A stretch of DNA of 10,386 nt from Flaviramulus sp. (GTDB taxonomy: Bacteria > Bacteroidota > Bacteroidia > Flavobacteriales > Flavobacteriaceae), in contig JALRJA010000080.1 in NCBI GenBank assembly GCA_023255235.1, positions 1-10,386 of the forward strand, given 5' to 3'. Both the position numbers and the translations under genes were made by a program. The notes under the pieces were generated by a model. The model searched no databases and was not told the DNA's origin. It saw only the letters and a list, made by a program, of their open reading frames with translations. Each line of letters starts with the position of its first letter. Within the stretch, counting starts at the first letter, position 1. Of this stretch, positions 8,411 to 10,386 are shown one piece after another.

Positions 8411-9508
8411 ATGTTGAGCGATTTACCAATAAGAAAAATTATTCATATTGATATGGATGCTTTTTATGCTTCTGTAGAACAAATGGATAATCCGGAATTA
8501 CAAGGAAAGCCTGTTGCTGTAGGCGGTAGTGAGAAACGCGGTGTAATTAGTGCGGCAAGTTATGAGGCTAGAAAATTTGGTGTTAGAAGTGCTATGGCAG
8601 GAAATTTGGCTGTTAAATTATGTTCTGATTTAATTTTTGTTAAACCTAATTTTGATAGATATACTGAAATATCAAAGGCTATTAGAAGTATTTTTTATGA
8701 TTATACAGATTTGGTAGAACCTCTTTCGTTAGATGAAGCTTATTTGGATGTAACCCATAATAAAAAGGGAAACCCAAGTGCTTCTTTGATTGCTAAAGAA
8801 ATTAGAGAGCGTATTTTTAATGAGATTGGTTTAACCGCCTCGGCAGGTATATCTATTAACAAATTTGTTGCTAAAGTGGCTAGTGATTTTAATAAACCTA
8901 ATGGACAAAAAACGGTAAACCCTGAAGATGTGATGGTGTTTTTAGAGCAATTAGATATTAGAAAATTTTATGGTGTAGGTAAGGTTACTGCCGATAAAAT
9001 GTACCAAAACGGTATTTTTACAGGCTTAGATTTAAAGGATAAATCTATGGCTTATTTGGAAGCTAATTTTGGTAAATCTGGCAGGTATTATTATGATGTT
9101 GTGAGAGGGATTCACAATAGTGAGGTAAAGCCTAACCGTATTAGAAAAAGTTTGGCTGCAGAACGCACCTTTAATGAAAATTTATCTAGTGAAGTTTTTA
9201 TGTTAGAGAAGCTTACTAATATAGCTGATGAGGTTTCTAGAAGATTGTCTAAAAGTAAGGTTGCTGGTAAAACGCTAACTTTAAAAATAAAATACAGCGA
9301 TTTTTCATTGCAAACACGTAGTAAAACTATGCCTTATTATATACGTAGTGCTAGTATGATTTTTGATATTGCTAAAGCCTTGCTTTTTCAAGAAAAGCTG
9401 CGTGATTCGGTTAGATTATTAGGCATATCGTTATCTAATTTAAATACGGAAACCAAAAAGCAGCCCGAGCAAAAAAGTGTGAGTGTACAGCTAAAGTTTG
9501 CGTTTTAA
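8411..9508 (+). CDS. dinB: DNA polymerase IV (Y-family translesion polymerase)
   Basis: This 365-residue error-prone polymerase replicates past damaged bases. The metal ligands are Asp14 in HIDMDAFYASVE and Asp108-Glu109 in SLDEAYLD; Tyr19 occupies the steric-gate position that excludes ribonucleotides. SAGISINKFVAKVASDFNKP (144-163) is the conserved palm motif, FYGVGKVTADKM (186-197) is the helix-hairpin-helix thumb, and the little-finger domain occupies about 240-345. The C-terminus ends QLKFAF, which resembles the beta-clamp peptide at the end of E. coli DinB (QLVLGL). The length is full. The ATG is preceded by 90 AT-rich bases shared with the divergent CYTH gene. There is no LexA-like box that I can recognise, so DNA-damage control is not shown. 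Confidence 0.97.
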   Translation: MLSDLPIRKIIHIDMDAFYASVEQMDNPELQGKPVAVGGSEKRGVISAASYEARKFGVRSAMAGNLAVKLCSDLIFVKPNFDRYTEISKAIRSIFYDYTDLVEPLSLDEAYLDVTHNKKGNPSASLIAKEIRERIFNEIGLTASAGISINKFVAKVASDFNKPNGQKTVNPEDVMVFLEQLDIRKFYGVGKVTADKMYQNGIFTGLDLKDKSMAYLEANFGKSGRYYYDVVRGIHNSEVKPNRIRKSLAAERTFNENLSSEVFMLEKLTNIADEVSRRLSKSKVAGKTLTLKIKYSDFSLQTRSKTMPYYIRSASMIFDIAKALLFQEKLRDSVRLLGISLSNLNTETKKQPEQKSVSVQLKFAF

Positions 9509-9523
9509 GTGTGGTGTTTAACT

Positions 9524-9612
9524 GCGTTAGCGATTGTAGTGGCATCCTTTTTTGAGGTACGATAAAAAGATATAACGGAAAGCGCGACCCTGAACCTGTT
9601 TCAGGGTAACGC
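9524..9612 (+). ncRNA. Candidate structured intergenic RNA element (flavobacterial repeat type)
   Basis: Just after dinB, GCGTT (9524-9528) can pair with AACGC (9608-9612), closing a junction that contains two hairpins. The first is CTTTTT (9547-9552) with AAAAAG (9564-9569). The second is ACCCTGAA (9587-9594) with TTCAGGGT (9600-9607) around a CCTGT loop. The primary sequence (GATTGTAGTGGCATCC, AGATATAACGGAAAGCGCGA, AACGCCC) resembles an element I recall recurring between genes in Flavobacteriaceae. It may correspond to the Rfam Flavo-1 motif, but I cannot confirm the match. An alternative pairing, GCG (9582-9584) with CGC (9610-9612), competes with the outer stem. The pairing is seen directly; the RNA identity is inference. 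Confidence 0.4.
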
Positions 9613-9623
9613 CCTTATTTTTA
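9582..9623 (+). terminator. Terminator hairpin of dinB, probably bidirectional with pyk
   Basis: The perfect 8-base stem ACCCTGAA / TTCAGGGT with a 5-base loop can be lengthened by GCG / CGC across a small internal loop, and is followed on the plus strand by TTATTTTTA (9615-9623). It stands between convergent dinB and pyruvate kinase. In the other direction a T-run (CTTTTT complementing 9564-9569) lies about 15 bases beyond the stem, so termination of pyk is less certain. Confidence 0.6.
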
Positions 9624-9633
9624 TGAAAATAAA

Positions 9634-9990
9634 TTAATCGCTTGTAATTTCTCTTACACGTAGGGTGTTTACCATGCCTCTTTCTGCAATTGGCATTGAG
9701 GCTAAACTAATTACCATATCGCCTTTTGATACATACCCTTGTGTTTTGGCAATTCTGTTTATGTCAACTACGGTTTCATCTGTTGAAACAAAACTGTCGT
9801 AAAAAAACACTTTGACTCCCCAAAGTAAGTTAAGTTGTGTTAAAATGCGTTTGTTGGATGTAAATACTAATATGTGGCATGATGGTCGCCATGCCGAAAT
9901 TTGAAAGGCTGTATAACCACTATTTGTTAATGTTGAAATGGCTTTGGCGTTAATTTCGTTTGCCATATTTGCGGCATGGTAACATATAGA
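9634..9990 (-). pseudogene. pyk: Pyruvate kinase, C-terminal fragment truncated at its 5' end by the junction with phage sequence
   Basis: Pyruvate kinase makes pyruvate and ATP from phosphoenolpyruvate and ADP in glycolysis. Only the C-terminal domain is present, about 118 residues of an enzyme of roughly 475. An ATG at 9966 could open a 110-residue frame, but family similarity continues upstream of it in frame: SICYHAAN precedes MANEINAKAISTLTNSGYTA, as in flavobacterial enzymes. A TGA at 9993-9991 then ends the frame, so the ATG is an internal Met. The C-terminal allosteric-type domain shows ISAWRPSCHILVFTSNKRIL and the ending MPIAERGMVNTLRVREITSD. The barrel with the active site is missing. 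Upstream DNA is phage-like and encoded on the other strand. The intact gene probably exists in the organism and the break lies in this contig; a real disruption would remove a central enzyme. Confidence 0.9.
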
Positions 9991-10386
9991 TCAGGTTGGG
10001 AATTTGCATTTATGAAATTCTGTGACGAAAACTCAAACGTTACTCAATGGGCAAGCGAAGCAATACGTATTCCTTATCGCAATCCACTAACCGGCAAGCA
10101 TACAATATATGTGCCGGACTTTTTTATTGCATACGTAGATAAAACTGGTAAACAGTTTGTTGAACTTATTGAAGTTAAACCTTCAAATCAAACTAGTCTA
10201 AAAGAAGCCGGCCGCAGTCGCCACAACCAACTACACGCAGTAGTTAATCAAGCCAAATGGGAAGCTGCAAACGCATACTGTAAACAAAACGGTATTAATT
10301 ACGACTTGATGGTATGTCAGGCAGCTTTTGGTATGGAGTTTACTCTCGGATTTGAAGGAGTATCTTCTACGTGGGACGGTAAAGAT
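9976..10386 (+). CDS. T4-like phage head-completion protein (gp4 family, PD-(D/E)XK nuclease fold), N-terminus missing, open at window end
   Basis: The frame is open for 137 codons to the last base. It reads VTYRSGWEFAFMKFCDEN, then WASEAIRIPYRNPLTGK, VPDFFIAY, ELIEVKP, and NQAKWEAANAYCKQNG. These blocks follow the order of the gp4 head-completion proteins of T4-like myoviruses, especially cyanophage and marine types. Counting from the ATG at 9976, Glu9, Asp48 (VPDF) and Glu66-x-Lys68 (EVK) form a PD-(D/E)XK nuclease active site. Family members carry about 20-30 residues before the Y-R-S/G-W-E block, ending in something like NPTN-I-V; these are absent, so the apparent ATG is probably not the true start. 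A tail after AAFG (MEFTLGFEGVSSTWDGKD) goes beyond the part I recognise. Four of five arginines use CGN codons, against mostly AGA in dinB. No other phage gene is visible. Confidence 0.75.
   Translation, partial: MVTYRSGWEFAFMKFCDENSNVTQWASEAIRIPYRNPLTGKHTIYVPDFFIAYVDKTGKQFVELIEVKPSNQTSLKEAGRSRHNQLHAVVNQAKWEAANAYCKQNGINYDLMVCQAAFGMEFTLGFEGVSSTWDGKD

Follow-up and report, generated by a model that had tools for sequence, protein, structure and literature searches.

Chimeras and local assembly errors are named among the faults of metagenome-assembled genomes in the available text of PMC7111523, which also states that the scaffolds of a bin often share perfect end overlaps, of n bases with IDBA-UD and of n-1 bases with metaSPAdes, where n is the largest k. 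Chimeric contigs in general are treated in the available part of PMC7299287. An ordinary bacterial pyruvate kinase combines two domains, PF00224 and PF02887, in one gene. The T4-like head completion protein family relevant here (PHROG 218), which we take to be gp4 of T4, is encoded by whole genes of 143-149 residues in 119 of the 120 homologues listed; an N-terminal AQGK motif is present in 106 of these 120 proteins, and a C-terminal FRI-TE-like stretch in 118.

The window, that is, the whole stretch of DNA analyzed here (10,386 nucleotides), is an entire contig, C364, of a Flaviramulus sp. draft genome (456 contigs, 2.07 million bases, 77.47% complete). The fusion of a pyruvate kinase gene (pyk) with a phage gene at the end of this contig is almost certainly an assembly or library artefact, because C214, a second contig from this assembly, carries the missing part of pyk. 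Taken as a whole, the best explanation is a chimeric join, with the contig end foreign to the bacterium from position 9992 on, a reading to which we assign a probability of about 0.97. As in the chimeric contig ends and local assembly errors covered by the available text of PMC7111523, a foreign end stands here beside an exact overlap with the true neighbor. In contrast to the chimeras of that text, whose defining mark is a lack of read support, C364 was judged from contigs alone, and its tail comprises at least two foreign pieces. The features of this contig end are the following:

9634-9990, minus strand: C-terminal domain of the host pyruvate kinase (PF02887, E 2.3e-33); the remainder of the gene is on C214.
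9873-9991: contig overlap, exactly identical to the first 119 bases of C214; presumed branch in the assembly graph.
9976-9978, plus strand: chance ATG within pyk DNA, not the start of gp4; it is also in C214, and relatives of the phage gene have more gp4 codons upstream.
9981-9991: point of the false join, 11 bases, AACATATAGAT, common to the true pyk (C214), the window and the viral contig L004.
9981-10298, plus strand: internal piece of a T4-like head-completion gene, gp4 (PHROG 218, PF08722); the first 23-24 codons and the genuine end of the gene are missing.
10299-10386: 88 bases after a second break, not gp4; 24 of the 88 positions are identical to L004, about as expected by chance.

On the minus strand, similarity to pyruvate kinase extends to 9990 and is followed by a stop at 9993-9991 (TCA in the window, TGA on the minus strand), and the 5' part is absent from both genes at the join, as an earlier, sequence-only reading of this DNA had described. 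That reading had also proposed to search the bin for a pyk 5' part continuing from about 9990; C214 has that part, and its overlap with the window ends at 9991. A profile search of the contigs yielded a single match to PF00224 in the draft genome, on C214, where a pyk frame stays open as far as the contig end and is 400 residues long (399 when counted from the first Met). When the genome was searched with window DNA 9951-10050, positions 79-119 of C214 were found to be identical to window 9951-9991, and direct comparison extended the exact identity to window 9873-9991 and C214 positions 1-119, with the two sequences parting at 9992. At the protein level, the last 39 residues of the C214 pyk frame are identical to the first 39 of the window piece.

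The same arrangement was recovered in four fetched relatives (L109-L112), in which, by tblastn, both pyk pieces adjoin, share one orientation and again overlap by 39 residues; in this comparison, the front of the gene lies outside the fetched stretch in L109 and L111, and the open frame was displayed for L109 and L112. Thus, the C214 piece and the window piece jointly cover both domains of a bacterial pyruvate kinase, PF00224 and PF02887, which are contiguous in the four relatives, and the only departure from an ordinary gene of this kind is its division between two contigs. A DNA search of 39 other genomes with window 9480-10386, considering up to the best 12 candidates per genome, matched the pyk region in 24 of them; none of these matches extends past 9991, and 10 end exactly there. 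Under the same limit on candidates, two of the remaining genomes match only around a Flavo-1 RNA, and 13 have no match. Given the exact overlap, the pyk frame on C214 and the gene layout in the relatives, the true chromosome passes at window 9991 into C214 and carries a complete, ordinary pyk.

The Flavo-1 RNA itself is located at 9516-9593 on the plus strand, between dinB and pyk (Rfam RF01705, 54 bits, cut-off 42). DNA similarity to this region, as distinct from matches to the Rfam model, was detected in 13 of the 39 relatives and, within the genome itself, on 10 further contigs (up to the best 12 candidates per genome); the phrase "Flavo-1 RNA" had no match in the literature searched. At the opposite, left end of the window, positions 1-260 are 78% identical to positions 9-265 of C69, a contig of the same bin, where the similar stretch likewise lies at a contig end. 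This likeness perhaps reflects a paralog, or the presence in the bin of DNA from a related strain or species.

On the phage side, a plus-strand frame is open from the chance ATG at 9976 to the contig end. It matches PHROG 218 (head closure) with E 1.3e-33 over profile positions 23-136 of 148. A tblastn search against phage records produced 2448 matches, all below 60% identity, and most of the phage records among the best 20 are annotated "head completion protein"; blastn of the 411 bases against phage records gave no match. The closest sequence among the best 80 of 490 viral stretches encoding a relative is L004, an IMG/VR contig that shares 296 of the 318 bases of window 9981-10298 and departs from the window to either side of this interval. 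Among the viral loci kept, of which L004 is the nearest, none is identical to the foreign part.

Both ends of this gp4 piece are abnormal when set against its homologs. In 24 of the 80 viral loci, compared around the join, 11-17 of the 60 bases before 9976 agree with the window, and the gp4 frame goes on upstream of the join point in every one. Among the 120 listed homologs, 113 contain the motif TYRS[GS]WE, in all of which it is preceded by proline, with 22-23 residues ahead of that proline; of the other seven, five have the proline on inspection, P0071 lacks it and P0069 starts later. The window reads valine in this position, from pyk DNA. The sequence-only reading had placed the beginning of gp4 similarity at 9979 (VTYRSGWE): a gp4-like frame does start at the join, but the GT at 9979-9980 belongs to pyk only, given the proline of the homologs. 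The likeness to T4-like gp4 holds from TYRSGWE to CKQNGI; the window differs in lacking the first 23-24 residues and the conserved C-terminal FRIVTEHDIFH-like stretch. Accordingly, what the window encodes is the middle of gp4 only, with the N-terminal part absent, the proline read as valine and the C-terminal stretch missing.

The loss of the C-terminal stretch coincides with a second break, missed by the sequence-only reading, at 10298/10299, where gp4 similarity ends; none of the 120 listed homologs aligned over more than 86% of the query. The last 88 bases have no other occurrence in the bin. In blastn-short and tblastn searches against 103 of 108 loci (the window's own five being left out), matches were confined to the stretch preceding the break and to short chance words, and an exact 24-base word from 10299-10386 was absent from the viral and genome contigs searched. 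A 30-residue frame of these bases, compared with phages by tblastn, retrieved five Pseudomonas phage DNA polymerases at E 2-6, which is not significant, and two frames compared with PHROG profiles had no match. Because the sequence switches at 10299 to something other than gp4, the tail comprises at least two foreign pieces, unless the source phage has an unusual gp4 end. The foreign part thus spans the last 395 bases of the contig, starting at 9992, with a further break at 10298/10299 and no genuine gene context, and, with the phage-side tail itself broken, the contig end is a patchwork of at least three parts.

The junction between host and phage DNA falls on a short stretch, AACATATAGAT, delimited by the three-way comparison of C214, the window and L004; as L004 is a stand-in for the real phage, the shared stretch may be a base longer or shorter. 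The sequence-only reading was right that the two genes share a few bases, and the comparison moved these from 9979-9990 (about 12 bases) to 9981-9991 (11 bases). In a blunt random join, 11 or more shared bases would arise with a chance of about 8e-6 (L004 again standing in for the phage), which suggests that the join most likely depended on the short match. A 24-base pattern spanning the join was found in no viral contig searched, as expected of a false join, and a pattern beginning inside the shared bases was found in one, L108, which is the same contig as L004. The first choice of the sequence-only reading, a chimeric join at short shared sequence, is therefore borne out by C214, which carries the rest of pyk, and by the exact 119-base overlap.

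Where its graph branches, a de Bruijn (k-mer) assembler leaves an exact end overlap up to the base of divergence; the default k values of MEGAHIT include 119, and this program extends contig ends using words down to a length of 11. The artefact probably originated in a short-read assembly in which the 119-base word 9873-9991 formed a branch point of the graph. One branch, the true one, would lead to C214, whereas the false one, which stayed on C364, would have been entered via 11 bases that are by chance common to pyk and a T4-like phage gene. This false branch, stemming from contig-end extension by the assembler or from chimeric reads, would have added 307 bases of phage gp4 (9992-10298), followed by a third sequence of 88 bases. 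Neither the left end of the window nor the far end of C214 has an exact overlap with other contigs, so that the 119-base signature comes from the C364/C214 pair alone.

Within the same chimeric reading, the join could also have been made in the laboratory, by a template switch during amplification at 11 complementary bases, with the assembler following the resulting reads. The length of the shared stretch is compatible with this scenario: in the available text of PMC1855051, more than 70% of MDA chimera junctions are primed at complementary stretches of 2-21 bases, a range that includes 11. The same text reports, however, that 85% of MDA chimeras are inverted, mostly within one molecule, and that complementary bases occur at only 27.6-34.8% of the junctions joining segments more than 10 kb apart. 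Moreover, nothing was seen to indicate an amplified sample, and a second break 318 bases on fits piecewise contig-end extension at least as well. A laboratory origin is possible but doubtful, and the second break makes contig-end extension by the assembler the preferred alternative to template switching.

A real event would require that, in a small share of the cells or phages, microhomology-driven recombination joined pyk to T4-like phage DNA, either because a T4-like phage captured the end of pyk or because phage DNA entered pyk in some cells, and that the contig caught this variant. The contig does exist, and it is conceivable in principle that C214 and C364 represent two genuine alleles. 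Against this stands the structure of the phage piece, which lacks both gene ends, is succeeded by another piece without a match and ends where the contig ends; the contig breaks off on the phage side, leaving one flank only. A search with the PHROG 218 profile found no second gp4 in the bin, the window copy being the only one, and none in 99 other genomes of the family. The same search gave no match in any of 14 named controls, yet found the window's copy; silence in the controls is expected for a gene of lytic phages. A search of the bin for gp23 also had no match, a weak point given that the control genomes were equally without one. On this evidence we consider recombination in a subset of the population very improbable. 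A prophage is not favored either, as no second gp4 was found in the bin. Least probable of all is a chromosomal fusion that destroyed the only pyk of the bacterium: the catalytic domain has a single match in the bin, but that match is on C214, which overlaps the window exactly, runs on from 9991 and completes pyk.

With a chimeric join as the preferred reading, this locus calls for caution, as a chimeric contig end can look like the capture of host metabolic genes by a phage. Automated gene calling would yield a gp4-like protein here of which neither the start nor the end is genuine. In this case, the question could be answered without reads, from the exact overlap between the ends of two contigs in one bin.
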